From Methanomassiliicoccales archaeon (GTDB taxonomy: Archaea; Thermoplasmatota; Thermoplasmata; Methanomassiliicoccales; UBA472): a stretch of 14,435 bases of DNA. The notes under the pieces are model-generated. The model was not told the origin of the DNA. It saw nothing but the letters and a program-made list of their open reading frames with translations, and did no database searches. A program made the position numbers and the translations under genes. Every line of letters begins with the position of its first letter. Positions within the stretch are counted from its first letter, which is position 1. Shown piece by piece: positions 204 through 13,541 of the stretch. The stretch spans positions 1 through 14,435 of the forward strand of contig DUJZ01000033.1 in NCBI GenBank assembly GCA_013329565.1. Reading direction: 5' to 3'.

Positions 204-1868
204 TTACTTAGCGGGGATGATGGCGGTCCTCTCACCCATGGGCACGAACTCCCTCAGGCAGCCGCGACCGAACTCCTTGGTTATGTTCGCGAAATCGAAC
301 GGGAGGTTCTTGTCGGCGAATGCGATCTTTATGAGGGGACTGCACACATAGGCGTCTCCGCGAGCGGCGTGGGGGGCCATGGCGATACCGCAGTATCCGC
401 TCAGGTGACCAACGTTCATGGCGTAGTTCGGGAAGTTCGGACCGCGCAGCTCGTGCGGCAGACCCTCGTCGCTCCGGTAGGAGAACGAGTTGGCGGCACC
501 GCACATGTCCTGCAGGTCGTATCCGTAGAACCCGAGCCTTCCAAGCCTCTCACGGTGCTGGTACATAGAGAGGTACCATCCGTTGACACCTGCGTTGGCG
601 TTACCAGTGGCCATCGCGACACCGATACCGGTGGCGGCAGCGGCGACGGTCGCCCTCTGGGACCCACCGAAGTGGGATTCCATGGCGGCCGGGTAGCGCT
701 CGTACATCTCCAGGGCGTAGGAGTTGATCTCGGACCCGAGCTTCTCGATGAGCTCAGAGGACGGCTTGCTCTTGCAGAACCCGCCGTACTTGTCCTTGAT
801 GTGGTCCACTGCCCAGTAGGTGTAGTCCTCCAGGATGTTGTCGGTGTAGGCGGCGGTGGCGTACTGAGTGAACCCGACCCCTCCGGACATGTATGATCCG
901 AGGTATATCTGGTCCAATATCACTGCTCCCATGGCGACAGCTTCCAGAGATGACCTGGCGGGGTCGTCCGGCTTGGTCCTGGTGCTCTGGACCATATCGG
1001 CCATAACACCGAACGGAATTCCACCGGGCTCGTTGGGGCCCCTGGCCCTCCTGGCGGGCATCATGGTACCCATTTCCACCACTGCGGCGTGCTTGGCGGC
1101 GAAGGCGAAGTCGGCGATAGCGGCTTCACCGGCAGCCAGCCGGTACGCGGTGATGAAGGCCATGGAGATCTGCATCGCAGAGTGCCTGGAGATCGTACCA
1201 CCATCGCACACGCGTCCGACGATGGACGGAACACGGACGACCTGCCACAGCTTCTTGCCGACAGCGGCCTTCAGCTGCTTGGCCTGGTCCGCGGGGAACT
1301 CCTTGTTGATGTCGATGACGAAGCACTTGTCGATCTCGTCGATCAACTCGTCGTCGCCAGAGAACACCTTGACGTAGGAGTCCTTCACCATCTCAGGGCA
1401 AAGCTCGGCCATGTGCTCCTGAACCACTGCGCCGCCTGGCATGGTGTGGTTGACAGCTTCCAGGTAGCGGTTTATGGTCTCGGGGGTGACCTCCTTCGAC
1501 AGCCTCTTCTCTATAACGTTGTGGGCGACATCCAGACCGACGATGACGGTCCTGCGTATGTCGTCCCAGCACTGCTGCATGGCAGCGTTGTTGACCCAGT
1601 GCAGGTCATCGGCCTCGCCATAGATGTCCGTGTGGGACAGCTGGTAGGGCATCAAGACACGCTGGCCCAGAGCCACACCAACATCCTGGTTCATCATGGG
1701 GATCCCACGGGCCTTGGCAATCCTGTTGGACTGCTCAACCCACTCCCGCTTCCTCTTCGACTGTCTCCAGCCTCCGTAGGAATAGTGCTTGGAGCGGACC
1801 TCCGTGGGGTCCTCCTTGAACTTCTTGTGCATGGCGGCGATGAACATCTTGTCCTTTTCCTTCGCCAT
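204..1868 (-). CDS. mcrA: Methyl-coenzyme M reductase subunit alpha
   Basis: Catalytic subunit of MCR, which makes methane and the CoM-CoB heterodisulfide from methyl-CoM and coenzyme B in the cytoplasm. The protein has 554 residues, the usual length. The ATG at 1868 is preceded by GGAGGA at 1875-1880 (6 nt spacing), which fixes the start; a longer open frame reaching to 2012 lies inside mcrG and is not used. Visible family landmarks are Gln150 in GAVVQEHM (axial ligand of F430 nickel), Tyr336 in GGVGFTQY, His260 (methyl-His), Arg274 in [13 protein letters not shown] (methyl-Arg), Gln404 in GGSQRA, Gly449 (thioglycine), Asp454 and Cys456 (S-methyl-Cys) in GYDLQDMCG. The residue before Cys456 is Met, where the better-known enzymes have Gln. 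The gene starts 2 nt after mcrG and ends with TAA. Residue equivalences are by motif alignment to the Methanothermobacter enzyme. Confidence 0.98.
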
Positions 1869-1870
1869 AT

Positions 1871-2653
1871 TTAGTCCTCCTTGACATCGAAGGGTTTGAA
1901 GCCGCACTTGGACCTGAGGGTGTGTATCCTGAGGTTCTGTCTCATGACCTCCTCGTCGTCCCTCATGTCCACGCCATCGGCGCGGAACATGGTGGTGTGC
2001 TCCTTCAACCACTTCTCGGGCATCGGCTTTCCGACCGGGACCGGCTTGTCCAACGGGACACCGACCTGGTCCTTCACGTACTCCACCTCGCCCTTCTTAG
2101 CGTTCCACCGGAACCTCTGCCAGGCATCGAACATCAATCCGTTCTCGTCCAGCCTGACGGCGTGTCCGTGCACGGTGGCTCCCCTGATGCCGGTCCTAGC
2201 GGAATCAAAGGTCTCGCCATCGATGAGTTCCTTGGCGACCTTTTCAACGTCCCTCTCCCTCATCTCGATGATCTGCCTTCCGGACAGGGTACCAGTGTCG
2301 ATCCCCCTGAATCTCCACATGTACATCTGCGCCCTCACGTACGGAACGATGGGGGCCCAGTATACGGAGTCAGTGAACTGAACGTACCTGATCCTGTCTC
2401 CCTTCTTCGCACCATCACTTGGCTCGACCAACGCCCTGATCGGGCAGTCGGGCTCGCTACCCTCGGCCAGCGGCGGGTGGATGGTTGCGTAGTCGGAACC
2501 GGGGACCCTGTGTCCCAAGATCTTGACCACGTCGTCCATCGGAACGTCGCGCAGCTTCTCCAGCTTAACGCTAGGGTCCATGAACCGTCTGCGGTTCTTG
2601 GCGGGCAGGGTGTTGCCAGGATAAAATTGTGCCTTGTACTTTGTCTTAGCCAT
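1871..2653 (-). CDS. mcrG: Methyl-coenzyme M reductase subunit gamma
   Basis: Gamma subunit of the (alpha beta gamma)2 MCR complex; it lines the coenzyme M/F430 pocket. The 260-residue protein has the usual length and the family motifs [20 protein letters not shown] (Arg126, probably the residue that contacts coenzyme M, Arg120 in the Methanothermobacter enzyme) and [16 protein letters not shown] (residues 157-172). The ATG at 2653 follows the mcrD stop by 1 nt, with a GGTG ribosome-binding sequence inside the end of mcrD. Its last codons (GAG GAC TAA) in turn carry the GGAGGA that serves mcrA, so translation of the two genes is probably coupled. mcrC, which lies between mcrD and mcrG in many methanogens, is absent. 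Confidence 0.97.
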
Positions 2654-2654
2654 G

Positions 2655-3077
2655 TTATTTCACCAATCCTTTCTTGTAGTCTGAAGTAGTGGCCTGGAAC
2701 TTGTTGTAGCGACCTACCTCCAGGGTGAAGTTGAAGGGCAGTAATTCCTTGCATATCTCCTCAACTTCCTTCAGAGCCTGCGGGACGAAGTCGATGTCAC
2801 ATATCTCAACGAAAATGCGACCGACCTGTACCGTAAGCTCGATGTCCTCCCCTCTGACCTTGATCATCCTCCGTTCCGGGTGATTTACCGGATCTCCAGT
2901 ACCGGGGCCGGCCTTCATGATCGATGGCAGGCCTTCGCCCTGGATATTGATCTGCCTTACGTTCTTCACGGTGTACAGCTTGTTCAGCAACGCTTCCGTG
3001 GTGGACGCGGACAGCAGCCTCTCCGGGAAGATCTGGATCTCGGGTAGCGGGACTCCTTCAGAGGTAAGCGTACTCAT
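2655..3077 (-). CDS. mcrD: Methyl-coenzyme M reductase operon protein D
   Basis: McrD is encoded in most mcr operons but is not a subunit of the finished enzyme; it is thought to help assembly or delivery of cofactor F430 to MCR. The 140-residue protein shows the McrD pattern: [20 protein letters not shown] near the N-terminus, a [12 protein letters not shown] segment, and [10 protein letters not shown] in the second half. The ATG at 3077 begins 2 nt after the mcrB stop; AAGGAG sits 11 nt upstream within the last codons of mcrB. The stop at 2655 is 1 nt from mcrG. It lies in the second position of the operon, as usual. Confidence 0.95.
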
Positions 3078-3079
3078 TT

Positions 3080-4408
3080 TCAGCCCAGCTCCTTCAGCTT
3101 CTTGGCCTCCTTGCCGACCGTCTTCATGGGGCTCTTGAACTCCGCGATATCGCCGAAGATCTCCTTGAACACCAAGGAGGTGTTCTCAGCGCTGAAGTAC
3201 TGAGTACCAGCATCCAGAGCGCATCCAGCAGCGATGACGGGGTTAACAGTTCCCTTTGCATGCCTGGTGACCACGTGGTTTCCGTGGAACAGTCCCGGAC
3301 CGCCACCGCCATAGATGGAGTGGCTGAAGAAGGACATACCGACGGAAGTACCCATGGCCCTGCCGTAGTCTACACCGGGCAGGCTGGTCTCGTGCTCCAC
3401 CAGGTCGTTGTAGTACAGAATGGTGGACGGAACACCCTGAGCGGCCCTTGCGGCACCGATGTTCACACAGATCGCGGCGAGCATACCAGCAGACACGTAG
3501 GCGTTCCACAGCGGGTAGTCGGTCGTGACATACTCAACGAATCCAGAGGGGAACTTCTTTCCCTTCTTGATGACCTTGTCATCCAGGGCGCGGCCAACGA
3601 CGGAAGCGACGACGTCACCGACGGTGCCGGTCTTGCCGTTCTCCTTGACCCAGCTGTAGACCATGTTGTTGGCGTTCAGGCCCTGATAGGCCAGGGACAA
3701 CAGGTGCTGTCTCTCGAAGTTACCGATCGCGTCACCCATCTCGTAGGCGGCGGCGGTCTCGTAGATCGAGGAGAGAGCGGCGGCGTTCATGGCGTTCCTT
3801 CCAGTCAGCATGACTATGTGGTTGGCCATGATGTTCCTAAGGGCATATCCAGTACCCTCGTTCAGCTGCGGGACATCGAGAATGGACCTCAGGTTGGATC
3901 CCAGCATGTTGATGGTCTGCGGGTATCTGCCCCAGACAGCGGCCTTGACCATGGAGGCCTCGAACATGTTCACGTCGAACTGGTCGATGATCGCCTCGGT
4001 CACGGCGGCAGCAACGGTGGTAAATCCAGTGGTGTACTCGGCACCGGCCTCTATCCTAACGGACGGAACGGTGACGACCATCCTCTTACCAGCATCCTTC
4101 AACTGAACCTCAGTGTCGTCGTCCTTGGCGACCTTGACGATGTCAGCGATCCTCTTCTTCAATTTGTCAGCGTTCGCCACTACAGCGAGGTCCAGAACCC
4201 TGCCTGGAACGTTCAATCCGCCAACCGCTCCGGTCTTGAGACCTTTCTCAATACCCTCGAGGTTGACAGCGATCGTTCTCTTGGTCAGAGATATGGTTCG
4301 CTTAATGGCGGCGTTGTTTAACGGACTCAATGCGTCGAGAGGCACGTCTTTCTCGATTAGTTTGCCTCTGTCGTCATACAAGTCCACCTTGTCCTTGTAT
4401 TTTGCCAT
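3080..4408 (-). CDS. mcrB: Methyl-coenzyme M reductase subunit beta
   Basis: Beta subunit of MCR, contributing to the active-site channel that binds coenzyme B. The protein has 442 residues (family about 440). Landmarks are [13 protein letters not shown] (Phe360, Phe361, Tyr366) and GNHVVTRH (His378, equivalent to the coenzyme-B-contacting His379), plus the N-terminal [18 protein letters not shown]. The start at 4408 is marked by a very strong ribosome-binding site, AGGAGGT at 4414-4420, spaced 5 nt. It is the first gene of mcrBDGA and has a 262-bp AT-rich upstream region with a candidate promoter and inverted repeats. It ends with TGA, 2 nt before mcrD. Confidence 0.98.
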
Positions 4409-4670: not shown

Positions 4671-5324
4671 TTATAATAATTTATATGGCTGCTCGCAGGC
4701 GTCCTTGATGAATTTGAGCACGGTTATCGCGTCCTCCTTTTTAATATCTCGGTAATTATCCGCAAAAAACCGGTCAAATTCCTCGAAATGGCTTTTGCCC
4801 AATCTCCGGCGAGCAACCTCGAGGAAGGCTGGGACCGTCCTACGGGGATAATAGATCGATCGCATCTCGCTCAATATCCCGGCCCTCTGCGCCGTATCTA
4901 TCACATCAGCCATCCAGGCCGCGTCCAGAAGGACCCGCAGATTAACCAGCGGCTCGGACAATGGCTCCATGGTCTCCGGGTCGAAGACCAACGCCACCTC
5001 GTCGTCCCCCTGCACCTCCTCGCTGGCGTACATTTTGAAGATTTGTCCCACGCCGATCATTCCGTAATGACCCATCTCGGCGGCGCGGAGCGCCCCCATG
5101 CTTCCTCCGCCGACCACCTTCACCTTGCGGTTCAGTAGCGAAAGTATCTCCCGGTGGCCGACCGAGCAGCTTTGCAGAAAAACGCCGTCGATAATGCCTA
5201 CTAGCTCAACGCCTTCCAGACGCTGCAGGTCCCCCCGCTTGACTGGCGGACGGTAATCTGCGTCCAGGATATCCTTGGCCTCGGCGAGAGGGAGGCTCGG
5301 CCCCAGATAGATAACCGGCCTCAT
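4671..5324 (-). CDS. tfuA: TfuA-like protein, partner of YcaO in McrA thioamidation
   Basis: TfuA works with YcaO to convert a glycine of McrA into thioglycine; TfuA is thought to recruit or supply sulfur while YcaO activates the amide with ATP. The 217-residue protein has the TfuA-domain pattern: VIYLGPSLPLAEAKDIL (residues 4-20), YRPPVKRGDL (24-33), GIIDGVFLQSCSVGHREIL (43-61), GGGSMGALRAAEMGHYGMIG (72-91) and DDEVALVF (107-114). The ATG overlaps the ycaO stop in an ATGA arrangement (5321-5324), so the two are translationally coupled. It ends with TAA, followed by the mcr control region and then mcrB. The archaeal role is established genetically in Methanosarcina; here it is inferred from family and context. 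Confidence 0.93.
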   Translation of the reverse strand: MRPVIYLGPSLPLAEAKDILDADYRPPVKRGDLQRLEGVELVGIIDGVFLQSCSVGHREILSLLNRKVKVVGGGSMGALRAAEMGHYGMIGVGQIFKMYASEEVQGDDEVALVFDPETMEPLSEPLVNLRVLLDAAWMADVIDTAQRAGILSEMRSIYYPRRTVPAFLEVARRRLGKSHFEEFDRFFADNYRDIKKEDAITVLKFIKDACEQPYKLL

Positions 5325-6514
5325 GCCACCAGCCTCGGTCCCAGGCGGTCCATGTCCATGGCGTATATCTCCATCCCAGGTATGATCACGCGCACGACTG
5401 GAACGCCAAGCTCCGGTCTGGTGAGCTCCACCACGATGACCTTCTCGAAACCGCGTTCCATCAGATGGTCCAGGACCACCTCGATGTCCTCCAGGAGGTC
5501 CTTGGTGTCGAACTCCGGGAAGTCGGAGATGCTGACCCCCTCGGAAGGGGAGAAGTACATGGAGTTCATGGCCTTCATTCGCTCATATCCAAGCGTGCGA
5601 TTCAGGTCGGCCTTGGTGGTGTCCTCGCGGGCGCCGTGTATCTGTGTGCAGCGGCTCTGAGCGACCTCGGTCAGCGCTCGGATCGCCGCCACCCTTGGGC
5701 TCAGGTGAGCTCCCACTCCCAGGTTCAGCAGGGCGGGGTCCTTCATCCTCACGTCGTCCGCTGCCGCGGCGATGGTCGGAATGCCGACATCACTGGTGAG
5801 GTCCTTGAGATGCACTTCGACGCCTTGCTTCCTGAACTTGTCCAGAAGGTCGCTCACCACCGGGCAATCGTCCCCGACGACGATCTCGCCGCGGGGTTTC
5901 CGTCTGGCCTCGCATATAGACCAGGCGTCTCGTTCCACGACCTCGCACATGGCGTGCAGTATCGCCTCTTCGAGGTTGTTGCCGGACGCCAGGCCGTTCG
6001 TGTTGCTCCTGAAGAGCTGGAGGTCCTTGTTCGATCCGTAAGGATGGTACACCGCCCCGGCCGGCACCCAGATGTCCTCACCCTCGATGAGGTCGTACCC
6101 CTTCACCCAGGCGATGGGATGGAAGTTGACATGGACGTTGATCATCTGAGGAAGTATCAGCGAGCGGGGGTCGACGGCGTTCTCGGAGGCCATCATGTTC
6201 TCCATGAGGTCCCGCCGGACCTTCTCGTCCTTCGGTTCGGCCGAGTAGCGTTCCATGGCTTCCATGATCGCTGACACGCGGGCCTGTTCCCGGCTGGCGC
6301 CCTTGCCGTTGTAGATGGATATCGCTCCCTCCTTCGCCCCGGGGCGGATGCTGGAGAACACCGGAATGCCGATGCGGTCCAGATCGGTGATGTCCGCCAC
6401 ACGGGTTATTCCGGCCGCGGGGAGCAGCGGCTCTACCCGTCTCAGGGTGGCCCTGGGGCTGATCGCCCGGTGACCGTCCTTGGTGTACGTCTTGGGAACA
6501 GGGTGGAGTTCCAT
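5321..6514 (-). CDS. ycaO: YcaO-family ATP-dependent enzyme for McrA thioglycine formation
   Basis: YcaO proteins phosphorylate a peptide amide with ATP so that a nucleophile can attack; the methanogen type, with TfuA, makes the thioglycine of McrA. The 397-residue protein carries the YcaO nucleotide-binding signatures: S81-x3-E85-x2-E88-R in ARVSAIMEAMERYSAE, the NGLASGNNLEEAILHAMCEV block (173-192) continuing to ERD (E191, E194), and LTEVAQSR (E283, R288). No C-terminal PxPxP tail, typical of azoline-forming YcaOs, is present. The start is taken as ATG 6514, preceded by GGAGGT at 6526-6531; a TTG nine codons earlier is possible but has no better signal. It lies 42 nt after the Lrp gene and overlaps tfuA by 4 nt. 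Its location next to mcr supports MCR modification as the role. Confidence 0.93.
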   Translation of the reverse strand: MELHPVPKTYTKDGHRAISPRATLRRVEPLLPAAGITRVADITDLDRIGIPVFSSIRPGAKEGAISIYNGKGASREQARVSAIMEAMERYSAEPKDEKVRRDLMENMMASENAVDPRSLILPQMINVHVNFHPIAWVKGYDLIEGEDIWVPAGAVYHPYGSNKDLQLFRSNTNGLASGNNLEEAILHAMCEVVERDAWSICEARRKPRGEIVVGDDCPVVSDLLDKFRKQGVEVHLKDLTSDVGIPTIAAAADDVRMKDPALLNLGVGAHLSPRVAAIRALTEVAQSRCTQIHGAREDTTKADLNRTLGYERMKAMNSMYFSPSEGVSISDFPEFDTKDLLEDIEVVLDHLMERGFEKVIVVELTRPELGVPVVRVIIPGMEIYAMDMDRLGPRLVA

Positions 6515-6556
6515 GGGTGGGAAGAACCTCCGAGGAATCAAAAAGCTTTTGCGTGG

Positions 6557-9831: not shown

Positions 9832-10113
9832 TCACATCACGGTGAGATAGCGCCGGTCGTACTCGTCCATCAGCGCGTCGCGGTACAGCTTCTCGGACCC
9901 TTCCGGAACGGCCCTGCGTTCCTTCGCCCGGGCCAGAAGCTCGTCGGCCACAAGCTTTCGCTGCGGCATCTTGAGCTTGCGGACCTGTTCCATGATCTCG
10001 TCCAGGCCGACGATCTCGATCAGCTGCCCGTTGACCAGCAGCTTCTCGCTTTCGCTTGGGAAAAGTCCTGTGTCGCAGTCCATGCAGTTCAGTTTGGTAT
10101 CGTCGCCCCTCAT
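9832..10113 (-). CDS. Small conserved-looking protein with N-terminal CxxC
   Basis: A 93-residue soluble protein that I do not recognise by name. It opens with a Cys10-x2-Cys13 pair in LNCMDCDTGLFPSESEKLL, then GQLIEIVGLDEIMEQVRKL, then a charged helical C-terminal half ending in DEYDRRYLTVM. The CxxC suggests a bound metal or a redox pair. The start has no good ribosome-binding site. It lies 46 nt after the 241-residue gene at 10160, but T-tracts lie in that gap, so cotranscription is uncertain. Its stop abuts that of the convergent DUF1616 gene with no base between. Protein-like composition and neat packing support it as a real gene. Confidence 0.7.
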   Translation of the reverse strand: MRGDDTKLNCMDCDTGLFPSESEKLLVNGQLIEIVGLDEIMEQVRKLKMPQRKLVADELLARAKERRAVPEGSEKLYRDALMDEYDRRYLTVM

Positions 10114-10159: not shown

Positions 10160-10885
10160 CTACAGGAAGTAGAACCGGGTCTTGTAGGTGAGGCAGACGT
10201 TTCCCATCTTCTCCAGGCGGTCCAGCACCCCGGAGTAGCGGCGGACCATCACCTTTCCCTCGTCCGGAAGCTTCTCCCTGAGCAGCTTTACCTCCTCCAG
10301 GAGCTTGTTGGCGTCCTCCACGGAGAATATTTTCTTGCTCTCCACGGACGACGGAACGCTGGCGACCATGGCGCAGTTGTACTTCTGAGCGATCCCGGGC
10401 AGCGCGCTGTTCTCCGGTCCGAAAGTACCCATGCAGCCCCTCCCCTCGTCCCAGGAAAGCGGGCACTTCAGGCAGGTGGCGGACATCTCATCGAAGGAAA
10501 GCATGTCCCAGCCGGTGAGCCGGTCGTCCTTGCCGGCCTTCTGCATCAGAGCGTTCATCCGGTCGGCGGGCACCTTGTCCACGGATATCCATCCGGTGTA
10601 AAGCTTCTGGCTCTCGGCGGTCAGCAGCTGGCGGTCCCCTTCGTTCTTGACCTTCTCCAGGTACAGCGTCTCCATCTCCGGGTCCAGACGGTTCCGCTTG
10701 AGGAACGCTTCCCAGTCCGCGCCCATGAGCAGCTTGGCCTGGTTTATCGGCACCACCAGGTCGAACTCGGCCAGGTCCTCGAAGCCGGAGACGTCCTTCA
10801 GGTTGACCTTCAACAGGGTGGTCTTCCCGATCTTGCATAACGCACTGTCGCTGTCCACTTCGCAAATGGCTATTGATACGCCCAT
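10160..10885 (-). CDS. Protein of unknown function with CxxC-x9-C cysteine motif
   Basis: A 241-residue soluble protein that I do not recognise. The N-terminal 60 residues (MGVSIAICEV, then DLAEFDLVVPINQAKLL) look like a small alpha/beta unit. A cysteine cluster, Cys138-x2-Cys141-x9-Cys151, lies in ATCLKCPLSWDEGRGCMGTFGP, with Cys171 nearby; it may bind zinc or an iron-sulfur cluster. The C-terminal part (185-228) is helical and charged. The ATG at 10885 has AGGAAGGG upstream and a TATA box at 10921-10929, so it starts a transcript divergent from the mtrA-like gene. It ends in TAG, an amber codon; in-frame reading past it would stop after about 12 codons. The neighbouring 93-residue protein also has a CxxC, so the two may act together. 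Confidence 0.7.
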   Translation of the reverse strand: MGVSIAICEVDSDSALCKIGKTTLLKVNLKDVSGFEDLAEFDLVVPINQAKLLMGADWEAFLKRNRLDPEMETLYLEKVKNEGDRQLLTAESQKLYTGWISVDKVPADRMNALMQKAGKDDRLTGWDMLSFDEMSATCLKCPLSWDEGRGCMGTFGPENSALPGIAQKYNCAMVASVPSSVESKKIFSVEDANKLLEEVKLLREKLPDEGKVMVRRYSGVLDRLEKMGNVCLTYKTRFYFL

Positions 10886-10970: not shown

Positions 10971-11004
10971 AAGAGGTTAACAGGTACTACCTGGCCATGG
11001 CACT

Positions 11005-11015
11005 TTTTATATATT
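11005..11015 (+). promoter_or_regulatory. TATA box of the mtrA-like/mtrH-like operon
   Basis: TTTTATATATT, 25-35 bp before the ATG at 11040. It predicts transcription starting within a few nt of that ATG and therefore argues against the in-frame ATG at 10959. Confidence 0.55.
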
Positions 11016-11039: not shown

Positions 11040-11813
11040 ATGGCAATGGCGGAAACGAACACATGGCCTATGGCCAGTGGTGACTACGTCCTGGGCAACG
11101 AAGCTTCGCCTGTGGCGGTGCTCATCGTCGGCCGGGGTGCGGTGGAGGTCCCGCGGGAGCTGTACTGCATCAAAGGCATCCTGAAGACGGAGAACATCGG
11201 TCTGGAAAGGGTCATCGCCAACGTCATCTCCAATCCCAGGATCAGAGTGTTGGTGATCTGCGGAAAGGAGGAGTTCGGACATTTTCCAGGCGAGGCCATC
11301 CACGCTTTGATGAAGAACGGAGTGGACGAGCACCGGCGCATCCGGAACACACGGTCGGCCATCCCGTTCCTGTGCGACCTGTCGCCGGAGGCCATTGAAA
11401 GGTTCCGCGAACAGGTGGAGCTGGTGGATGTCATGGACGGCTCGCCGGCGCAGGAGATAGCCGCCTACGACCCGATATACGAGTTCGACGCGGACAACCG
11501 TGACCGGCTGGAGAGAAAGTTGAGGGAGCTGGCTGAGAGGACGTACGTACCTTACCCCGGGGAGGCCGTGTTCGTCCGCTCCAAAGCGTTCGCCGGAGAA
11601 GGGGGAAGCGTGGCCAAACAGCTTCACCTGGCCTCGGACGACTTCATCACCCCCATGCTGCGCCTTCCCTCGGACGGGCTGAACACGGACATGGGGATGG
11701 TATTATTGGACCAGGAGTTCGGTGTGGTGCTCGAGCCCCTTCAGGGCAGGATCCTCACCGTTCCGTCCATCGAGCTGGCATTGAAATTGCGTTCCTATCT
11801 AACGGGGTTCTGA
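11040..11813 (+). CDS. Soluble MtrA-like corrinoid protein with an extra C-terminal domain
   Basis: A 257-residue protein. Residues 7-150 follow MtrA, the corrinoid subunit of methyl-H4MPT:coenzyme M methyltransferase: NTWPMASGDYVLGNEASPVA, then ILKTENIGLERVIANVISNP, then VLVICGKEEFGHFPGEAIHA, then PEAIERFREQVELVDV. His81 in GHFPG aligns with the MtrA cobalt-ligating His84. The C-terminal membrane anchor of MtrA is missing; residues 165-257 instead form a soluble domain (YVPYPGEAVFVRSKAF, later MGMVLLDQEFGVVLEPL) that I cannot name. The start is taken as ATG 11040 from the TATA box position; ATG 11046 is possible. The MtrH-like gene follows after 1 nt. Role inferred: corrinoid methyl carrier for an unknown methyl transfer outside the Na+-pumping Mtr complex. 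Confidence 0.8.
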   Translation: MAMAETNTWPMASGDYVLGNEASPVAVLIVGRGAVEVPRELYCIKGILKTENIGLERVIANVISNPRIRVLVICGKEEFGHFPGEAIHALMKNGVDEHRRIRNTRSAIPFLCDLSPEAIERFREQVELVDVMDGSPAQEIAAYDPIYEFDADNRDRLERKLRELAERTYVPYPGEAVFVRSKAFAGEGGSVAKQLHLASDDFITPMLRLPSDGLNTDMGMVLLDQEFGVVLEPLQGRILTVPSIELALKLRSYLTGF

Positions 11814-11814
11814 C

Positions 11815-12699
11815 ATGTACAAGTTCCAAACCGCGCAGCGGGAATTCTGCATCGGGGGCGTGAAGGTCGGAGGTCAGCCGGGCAAGAGGCGGACCATGCT
11901 GGTCGGCTCCCTTTTCTATCCGAGGCATTCGGTGGTCCTCGACCCCCGCCAGGGGACGTTGGACCGTGAGAAGCTGAACGAGAGGCTGGACAGTTATCTT
12001 GGAACGATATCAAAATGCGGCTGCCCCTCCGGCCTGATGCTATATTCTGAAAGCTGCGAATCTGCCCGCGCGTACCTGGAAGCGGTGTGCGACAGGGTTC
12101 CCGGACCGCTGTTCGCCGATTCCGGCAGCGCCGAGGTGCGGCTTTCATTCCTGAGAAGCGCGCAGGAGATGGGAGTACTGGACAGGGTGGTCTACAACAC
12201 CATCAACGCCGGTCTTTCGGAGGAGGAGACCGAGGCGCTCCGATCCTGTCCTCCGGTCAACGCGGTCGTCCTAGCGTTCAATCCCCGCGGGGACGATGTC
12301 AAGGGAAGGATATACATGCTGGAGAGCGGGGACGATCTCATCCCTAAGGGGCTGGTCCCGGCGGCGGAGGAGCTGGGGATAAAGAACCTGCTCATCGACA
12401 CCGCGGTCACCTCTCCCGACCTTAGCGCTGGATCTGCTCTCAGGTCCATACTGGTGGCCAAGGCCAAGTGGGGTTTGCCTACCGGTTGCGCCCTTCACAA
12501 CGCCGTGGAGTGCCTGCGGCTGGATGATCTGGAGGACCCCAAGGAGGCGAGGAGGAGCGTGGACGCCTCGGCGGTGGCCATCAGCATAATGGCCGGAGCG
12601 GACTACGTCGTCTACGGTCCGTTGGAGTATGCCAAGCGCACCATGCCGGTGGCGTCGTTCGCGGACAAGATGATGGAGCAGGCGGCGCGGGATCTCTAG
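11815..12699 (+). CDS. MtrH-like methyltransferase
   Basis: A 294-residue protein of the MtrH family, the TIM-barrel subunit that moves the methyl group from a methyl-pterin to the corrinoid of MtrA (family length about 300-310). Visible family features are the N-terminus FCIGGVKVGGQPGKRRTMLV and GSLFYPRH (residues 11-38), PLFADSGSAEVRLSF (98-112), VVYNTINAG (125-133), IDTAVTSPDLSAGSAL (194-209), GLPTGCALHNAVE (220-232) and MAGADYVVYGPLE (259-271). It begins 1 nt after the mtrA-like stop, so translation is coupled. No other mtr subunit is nearby. The methyl donor could be methyl-H4MPT, methyl-tetrahydrofolate or another methyl compound. It ends in TAG, overlapping the convergent gene's stop by 4 bp within a CTAG palindrome. 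Confidence 0.85.
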   Translation: MYKFQTAQREFCIGGVKVGGQPGKRRTMLVGSLFYPRHSVVLDPRQGTLDREKLNERLDSYLGTISKCGCPSGLMLYSESCESARAYLEAVCDRVPGPLFADSGSAEVRLSFLRSAQEMGVLDRVVYNTINAGLSEEETEALRSCPPVNAVVLAFNPRGDDVKGRIYMLESGDDLIPKGLVPAAEELGIKNLLIDTAVTSPDLSAGSALRSILVAKAKWGLPTGCALHNAVECLRLDDLEDPKEARRSVDASAVAISIMAGADYVVYGPLEYAKRTMPVASFADKMMEQAARDL

Positions 12700-13541
12700 A
12701 TCTCCATCGAACATCCCGTACCCAACAACAGGAATCCGGGGAAGCGGTCAGAGAACAGCTTGGTCGCCGCGAACCCGGTGCAGTGCAGCGGAGCCACCTT
12801 GTTCACTCCCGCCCGCTTCACCCCGTCCATGGTCTTCAGAAGAACATCGGTTTCCGCCTTCCACATGTGGAACCCTCCGGCGGCCATGAGCAGCTTCCGT
12901 CCGGTATGCATGCGCACCTGGGTGAGGATGTTCACGATGCCCGGATGACCGCAGCCGGTGAGCACCACCAGGCCGTTCCGGGTGGATACGCACAGCGCCT
13001 GCTCCTCCTTTATGATGTCCTGCGCCGTCTCGCCCTCCCGCTCGATCAGGAAGGAGGCTGGCTTTTCGAAGTCCGTCCTTCGGAATATCTCCCCGGAGGT
13101 GCTTACCCCGGCGACCAGCTCCTTGGGTCGGCCGTCGTATACCGGAGGGTGATCCTTCAGAAGGGAGAGCAGTTCGGCCGACGGCCCTATCTGCTTGCGG
13201 ACGCCGGACGTTTCCACGAAACGCCGGCCCTGGAACGTCAAGGGATGGGTGTGCACTGGAACCCCCTCCCTGAGCAGAAGCGGCAAGGCGCCCAGATGGT
13301 CGTAATGTCCATGAGATACGAAGACCAGGTCGATGTCCCTAGGCCTTAGTCCGACCAGGCCCAGGTTGTGCAGGAACGTCTGTTCCGAAGAACCGGTGTC
13401 GAGCAGGACCTTTTTCCCGCGGTCGGTCTCGATCAAAATGGAAAGCCCGTGCTCGGCCAGAAAGTCGCCGGGGGCCTTGGAAACGGAACTTAAGGGGTTT
13501 GCTGTGCCCGAATTATCGTCGACCAGGCAGGTGAGGCGCAA
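12696..13541 (-). CDS. Metallo-beta-lactamase-fold hydrolase, COG1237 type
   Basis: A 281-residue protein of the metallo-beta-lactamase superfamily. Metal-binding motifs in order are SHGHYDHLGAL (His77, His79, Asp81, His82), TGCGHPGIVNI (His199), GGFHMWKAET (His225) and APLHCTG (His253). The order and spacing fit COG1237, which includes archaeal proteins linked to pterin synthesis (MJ0301, reported as a dihydropteroate synthase); that role is only a guess here. The start is TTG at 13541, immediately after the ramA-like TAA with no intervening base. It is supported by AAAGGAG about 8 nt upstream and a family-like N-terminus RLTCLVDDNSG. Cotranscription with the corrinoid activator gene and convergence on mtrA/H-like genes suggest a place in C1/pterin/corrinoid metabolism. 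It ends in TAG. Confidence 0.85.
   Translation of the reverse strand: MRLTCLVDDNSGTANPLSSVSKAPGDFLAEHGLSILIETDRGKKVLLDTGSSEQTFLHNLGLVGLRPRDIDLVFVSHGHYDHLGALPLLLREGVPVHTHPLTFQGRRFVETSGVRKQIGPSAELLSLLKDHPPVYDGRPKELVAGVSTSGEIFRRTDFEKPASFLIEREGETAQDIIKEEQALCVSTRNGLVVLTGCGHPGIVNILTQVRMHTGRKLLMAAGGFHMWKAETDVLLKTMDGVKRAGVNKVAPLHCTGFAATKLFSDRFPGFLLLGTGCSMEI

Follow-up and report, generated by a model that had tools for sequence, protein, structure and literature searches.

A soluble MtrA-MtrH pair with an MtrB-like MtrA tail as a putative folate-linked methyl-transfer unit in Methanomassiliicoccales

The analysed window (14,435 nt) is the entire contig C118 of a Methanomassiliicoccales genome that is 83% complete, and carries on its plus strand an mtrA gene (11040-11813) separated by one base from an mtrH gene (11815-12699). 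The former encodes a soluble corrinoid protein of 257 aa (PF04208: 144.3 bits, cut-off 25, E = 3.9e-42) and the latter a 294-aa member of the pterin:corrinoid methyltransferase family (PF02007: 225.3 bits, cut-off 22.8, E = 1.2e-66). Since these strong Pfam matches go together with NCBIfam scores below the curated cut-offs for the classical subunits (127.9 vs. 249.15 for mtrA and 226.9 vs. 271.4 for mtrH), we regard both products as divergent members of their families. The real start of mtrA may be the ATG at 11046, which would yield 255 aa (as in the 255-aa P0121), and a candidate TATA-like stretch (TTTTTATATA) was spotted by eye upstream of the gene, near 11004-11013.

The pair is flanked by genes of the minus strand. 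On the mtrH side these are a conserved neighbour with a metallo-beta-lactamase fold (hereafter MBL; 12696-13541, PF00753, best solved chains 3h3e and 2p4z) and the C-terminal part of ramA, a corrinoid reductive activase, at which the contig ends (13542-14435; 349.5 bits against TIGR04270, cut-off 500, the match spanning profile positions 257-533 of 534). Two ORFs adjoining mtrA (9832-10113 and 10160-10885) are kept across the genus; neither had a Pfam match, and the larger had none in NCBIfam either. Farther upstream lies an operon (204-4408) whose ORFs were matched to mcr profiles built in this analysis and which we take to be mcrA, mcrG, mcrD and mcrB; the TfuA and YcaO genes of McrA thioamidation, found beside it (4671-6541) with scores over the curated cut-offs, are ordinary. 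The mcr genes, together with database relatives named 'Methanomassiliicoccales archaeon', support the assignment of the window to this order.

The His81 codon of mtrA (11280-11282, plus strand) specifies the expected lower axial cobalt ligand (His84/85 in canonical MtrA), a residue that was invariant in 16 of 16 aligned MtrA and in all 60 rows of a wider set. This histidine is described as the axial cobalt ligand of canonical MtrA (PMC10998594, PMC12774963). The window protein keeps the predicted MtrA fold and has the corrinoid domain, for which corrinoid binding is predicted. The highest 19-residue hydropathy of the window MtrA was 1.23, compared with 1.73-2.79 in the C-terminal region of seven canonical MtrA; by this measure, the protein is without a C-terminal membrane anchor. 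The initial annotation, which had described an anchorless MtrA with His81 followed by MtrH, was thus borne out by Pfam, residue alignment and hydropathy. A further ~75 C-terminal residues of MtrA were found to be conserved within the order, over 34 rows of which 29 are distinct.

In the plus-strand mtrH, alignment and a residue table placed the pterin residues at Asp102, Asn128, Asp195 and Asn229, and the counterpart of Methanosarcina mazei Arg211 at Arg210. All four pterin positions (Asp, Asn, Asp, Asn) were intact in 31 of the 32 MtrH of the order, the window included; the exception (L029, from genome G014) has three of the four changed.

The distribution of the pair was assessed in 147 genomes of the order, of which 74 were of high quality (20 with and 54 without mtrA). 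We recovered mtrA from 41 genomes and mtrH from 42 (the same 41 plus G104), while profile searches that were positive in two methanogen controls detected MtrE in none of the 147. The earlier claim that other mtr subunits are missing therefore holds for MtrE, which is absent from the window's genome (83% complete) as from all others, and its reading of a soluble pair standing alone without MtrE was right. At 36 of the 43 MtrA loci from 41 genomes, mtrA has mtrH as its next gene, read in the same direction. The other seven comprise the G136 locus, at which the two genes overlap through start-site choice, genus g13, in which G011 (L138) and G014 (L029/L049) have a divergent MtrH on the strand opposite to MtrA, and genus g26, in which G105, G106, G107 and G108 (L141, L142, L144, L149) hold MtrA copies apart from MtrH; in G107 and G108 (L143, L145) mtrH adjoins only a short MtrA-like ORF (149 and 80 aa, respectively). 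The MtrH of G119 is in two pieces.

That the pair has been left behind by an Mtr complex specific to H4MPT and is now relaxed in function could be argued from MtrA and MtrH being the only subunits known here, from MtrAH remnants reported in other archaea (PMC9635834), and from decay in places (the pterin residues of G014, the split MtrH of G119, the short MtrA-like ORFs of G107 and G108). We consider it very improbable, as the pterin residues are kept in all MtrH but one, the histidine in every MtrA row and the adjacency in most loci, and as the MtrA tail has a conservation of its own.

Two H4MPT markers were sought as a proxy for the pterin in use: none of the 147 genomes scored above the cut-off for RFAP synthase or for Mer (19 and 7 genomes, respectively, had weak sub-cut-off matches), while methanogen controls were positive. 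By this genomic proxy, H4MPT does not come forward as the methyl carrier. Pterin_bind (DHPS family) was present in 141 genomes and Fhs in 131 (37 of the 41 with mtrA), and MetF was detected in 48, being distributed over 33 of 41 mtrA-bearing vs. 15 of 106 mtrA-lacking genomes (by genus 14/16 vs. 6/14, p = 0.019) and over 19 of the 20 high-quality genomes with mtrA. Of the eight mtrA-bearing genomes in which it was missing, six are less than 90% complete, G144 and G014 being the others. Considering the absence of both markers, the company that MetF keeps with mtrA and the retained pterin residues, H4F is the likely partner pterin of the pair; methyl-H4F, which had been proposed for this role at the outset, is hence backed indirectly (by two markers absent over cut-off, folate genes and pterin residues). 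A role of MtrH as a substitute for AcsE was weakened by a second, weaker Pterin_bind match near MetF in G131, G134 and G004 (among the matches listed).

One further residue was considered as a mark of folate. The position of Arg239, proposed to contact the H4MPT tail, is basic in none of the 32 MtrH of the order, and elsewhere in 29 of 30 operon-labelled rows and 24 of 27 adjacent-pair rows. The mark was dropped since MtgA has Arg there, and it was weakened further by basic residues at positions 240 and 242 (in 12 and 13 of the 32 rows, respectively); with a non-basic residue in 32 of 32 rows and yet Arg in MtgA, the residues are no proof of folate. In a tree of 90 MtrH rows (the degenerate L029 was left out) the sequences of the order formed one clade (100/100), which grouped with soluble Thermoplasmatota MtrH and MtgA at 91/93, a value under the starred level and obtained with a long MtgA branch. 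In raw score the window MtrH matched the canonical MtrH of M. mazei better (169.7 bits) than it matched MtgA (135.5), and its 152.3 bits against the MtgA equivalog NF047990 lie below the cut-off of 550.

CdhC was found in 71 of the 147 genomes (34 of the 41 with mtrA). A general aceticlastic role of the pair was weakened by two of the 20 high-quality mtrA-bearing genomes (G137 and G138), in which CdhC was not found. As a separate observation, the acetyl-CoA synthase gene of G126 is unusually long (1,357 aa, with a Prismane/CODH domain before the ACS; L051:8518-12591), and that of G143 encodes 1,024 aa, of which ~340 N-terminal residues had no Pfam match at E 0.001 (L035:8335-11409).

In a scan that covered the methanol system, 104 of 147 genomes had an MtaB match with an E-value of 0.001 or lower (in 102 the match was over cut-off), namely 14 of 41 with vs. 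90 of 106 without mtrA. The same held in high-quality genomes (9/20 vs. 50/54) and by genus (9/16 vs. 13/14, p = 0.04), the genus counts lessening, though not removing, the shared descent that genome-level p-values ignore. This inverse distribution of mtrAH and MtaB, drawn from profile matches, seems to be new. The 11 high-quality genomes with mtrA and without MtaB all possess Fhs (in G138 a fragment only) and MetF, nine possess CdhC, and seven (G138, G140, G143, G146, G133, G004 and G005) have mcr genes on the examined stretches. The window's own genome encodes MtaB (G000:C2:12071-13459) along with Fhs, MetF and CdhC. The patchy presence of mtrA also bears on a biosynthetic role, in which MtrA would serve as methyl donor to a core methionine synthase. 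For other methanogens, MtrA has been predicted to donate the methyl group to MesA (PMC7857596), but the same work ascribes to Methanomassiliicoccales MesB alone and ties it to the Wood-Ljungdahl corrinoid protein, and no mtrA was detected in 106 of 147 genomes of the order; we find this role quite improbable.

The surroundings of the pair recur across the order. Of the 27 pairs having at least 4.3 kb downstream, 21 have RamA no more than 7 kb away (not so G135, G020, G022, G023, G105 and G109), an MtaA-family gene occurs on the examined stretch of 23 of 36 mtrAH loci (with none within 6 kb on either side of the G135, G105 and G109 pairs), and mcr genes occur on that of 18 of the 43 MtrA loci. 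The MtaA-family proteins carry H-x-C, presumably their zinc motif, in 33 of 35 cases. In G023 mtrA is immediately preceded, on its own strand, by a divergent mtaA-like gene whose ORF overlaps that of mtrA by 4 bases, giving an mtaA-like-mtrA-mtrH run, and in G020 an mtaA-like gene lies ~4 kb upstream of mtrA. A CobW-like GTPase and a small protein (c26) precede mtrA-mtrH in family f6 (L048, L139, L140, L143, L145, L146); in the window's genus their genes precede mtaA-family genes instead.

We rejected the notion that RamA and the mtaA genes are dedicated partners of mtrAH, since G126 (locus L163), which belongs to the window's family and is without mtrAH, has MBL-ramA arranged in the same way with two genes of the mtaA family. 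The persistence of the ramA, mtaA-family and MBL genes in that genome marks them as shared rather than dedicated, and implies that mtrAH was lost or gained there.

The same neighbours weigh on a rival account, by which the pair would link folate to corrinoid chemistry and not to CoM: a substrate methyltransferase would load MtrA, MtrH would methylate H4F, and the methyl would serve acetyl-CoA synthesis or oxidation, as with MtgA or MtoA. The grouping of MtrH with MtgA in the tree and the MetF and Fhs that accompany mtrAH suit such a role, as does the precedent of MtoA, for which H4F, not CoM, is reported to receive the methyl carried by its own corrinoid protein (PMC8630106). At the loci examined, however, it is mcr, ramA and mtaA-family genes that recur beside the pair, and no recurrent substrate methyltransferase was recognised among the neighbours that were identified, so that we judge this account possible, though unlikely.

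The conserved tail of MtrA offers a clue to how the two proteins may be held together. MtrA residues 219-241 (11694-11762, plus strand) form an MtrB-like segment, the proposed MtrH dock, in which Glu226 aligns with MtrB Glu9. In HHalign, the tail profile was compared with a profile of 37 MtrB from canonical operons (ORFs failing the pattern or length filter were left out), and tail columns 79-101 aligned with MtrB 6-28 (74.5%, score 33.0, pairwise E = 2.7e-5). The maximum score was 17.8 over 60 MtrB column shuffles and 18.5 over 100 tail shuffles, reversed MtrB gave 11.6, and 20 other families peaked at 22.5 (MtrH). Three sets of canonical MtrA tails scored 22.8-26.6 (16-35%) against MtrB, via regions including the membrane helix and in alignments that avoid the MtrB N-terminal sheet; scores in the twenties can therefore have other origins.

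A profile HMM of the MtrB N-terminus was run over 5,657 sequences. The first 40 hits (at least 33 bits) were of MtrB size and place, as expected given that the HMM was built from those sequences, and 32 of the hits ranked 41-75 were MtrA, matched in the tail, two of the other three (L120 and L107) being again of MtrB size and place. Taken singly, the tail matches are weak (6.5-15.3 bits, E 0.0013-1.1), and rows that are related do not count as independent cases. When the tail model (pLDDT 74) was compared with the PDB by Foldseek, the top chain was 9qtp_E (M. mazei MtrB), with 23 columns at 0.9 Å, a match that is not significant (E = 1.4, probability 0.54). MtrB was not among the families given by a Pfam scan of the tail, nor among the matches of a tail-profile search of PDB sequences.

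The MtrH dimer of the M. mazei complex is reported to be docked by residues 1-23 of MtrB, with salt bridges between MtrB Arg5 and MtrH Asp5 and between MtrB Glu9 and MtrH Arg211 (PMC12774963). In the order, 22 of the 29 distinct MtrA tails have Glu at the Glu9 position, and among the 32 MtrH the Arg211 position is occupied by Arg 30 times and by Lys twice, while Arg was found at the Arg5 position in none of the 29 tails and Asp5 was lost in all 32 MtrH. By alignment, the Glu9-Arg211 bridge thus appears retained on both sides, and the Arg5-Asp5 bridge gone from both. As read from sequence, these data suggest that the MtrA tail is an MtrH dock, either derived from MtrB or convergent with it. With a putative MtrB-like sheet (the piece that holds MtrH in the big complex) in its tail, MtrA may bring its own dock, which suggests that MtrA-MtrH is a self-tethering unit. 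A literature search returned no paper that we recognised as reading the MtrA tail as MtrB-like, and this reading seems to be new.

Among other lineages, tails of Thermoplasmatota (10.0), Methanotrichaceae (12.0) and Methanomethylicota (19.4) gave no clear MtrB match. Thorarchaeota MtrA tails (L078, L103, L110, L116) matched the MtrB N-terminus (73.3%, score 32.2), and the MtrH of this group has Gly or Ala at Arg211.

On balance, we favour by a little the reading in which MtrA-MtrH is a soluble corrinoid unit that exchanges methyl groups between methyl-H4F and an MtaA-family CoM methylator, with no pumping of Na+. MtrH would shuttle the methyl group between folate and MtrA (CH3-H4F + Co(I)-MtrA -> H4F + CH3-MtrA), RamA would reduce the MtrA cobalt once oxidised, and an MtaA-type zinc protein would move the methyl between CH3-Co-MtrA and CoM. 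The separate MtaA-type protein would be needed since the pair is without the CoM-methylating MtrCDE part, to which the CoM step in Mtr has been assigned (PMC10998594). Having no Na+ coupling, the reaction should be reversible, and could load CoM from the folate/acetyl-CoA branch, or folate from methyl-CoM. The absence of MtaB from many mtrAH genomes favours the direction from folate to CoM, and transfer towards CoM via the pair is a plausible prediction. For each methyl, Fhs spends one ATP on activating formate; with this cost and no sodium pumped, growth on H2/CO2 by the pair's route alone is disfavoured. If the flow were reversed, so that methanol passed by way of folate to formate, that ATP could be recovered, and the methanol disproportionation proposed by Speth & Orphan (PMC6147122) is such a flow.

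As MtaB is rarer in mtrA-bearing genomes, the pair may be a source of methyl-CoM for organisms that do not use methanol. The stronger claim, that in the MtaB-lacking mtrAH genomes (11 of 20 high-quality ones) the dock-held MtrA-MtrH is the main methyl-CoM supplier, we hold to be doubtful; were it true, these genomes would have a tetrahydrofolate-based, sodium-independent entry into methanogenesis. More generally, the proposed unit would represent the Mtr machine reduced to its smallest functional core, a folate-using corrinoid protein with its own clamp for the pterin enzyme, in which methyl transfer is separated from sodium pumping. It would question the view of these methanogens as dependent only on methanol and other methylated compounds, and bear on the source of their methane carbon.

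Both the pair and the main hypothesis on it are already in print. Soluble mtrAH of Methanomassiliicoccales was proposed as a methyl-H4F:CoM methyltransferase by Speth & Orphan in 2018 (PMC6147122), who had also noted the unusual C-terminal extension of MtrA, and its distribution in environmental clades was published in 2024 (PMC10804542); the idea in the initial annotation is thus supported in part and not new. With adjacent genes, no MtrE, the MtrA tail, and MetF and Fhs in the genome, the window pair is one of the soluble Methanomassiliicoccales mtrAH. The 'Lake Pavin' genome MALP (PMC6147122) is alike in order, in its two subunits (MtrB-G being reported absent), in the MtrA extension, in C1-folate genes and in the reaction proposed. 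It differs in that the extension is left without interpretation in the accessible part of that account, whereas here the tail is read as a putative MtrB-like dock, and in that MALP is credited with methanol genes only, whereas MtaB is missing here from 11 of 20 high-quality mtrAH genomes, a count that also departs from the description of the environmental clades as largely methanol-specific (PMC10804542).

With the Na+-pumping Mtr complex (MtrA-H) the pair shares the MtrA corrinoid fold, the His ligand, the MtrH family with the same pterin residues and, possibly, an MtrB-type sheet that holds MtrH. Unlike the pair, that complex has a membrane anchor and MtrE; in the pair the putative dock is fused to MtrA instead of residing in a separate MtrB, and folate would take the place of H4MPT. 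MtgA is partnered by an MtgC-type corrinoid protein and is not known to work with an MtrA, and the methanogens with mtxA/mtxH use H4MPT. The MtgA of Desulfitobacterium hafniense (a methyl-H4F:corrinoid methyltransferase, PDB 6SJ8) resembles the window's MtrH in family and pterin residues, and mtxA/mtxH (mtxXAH; PMC3087415) resembles the pair in uniting MtrA and MtrH homologues with the rest of the complex absent. The MtrAH of Asgard archaea (PMC11291895) is alike in this last respect, and the Thorarchaeota MtrA tails match MtrB too, but, unlike the folate-linked pair proposed here, it is described together with H4MPT.
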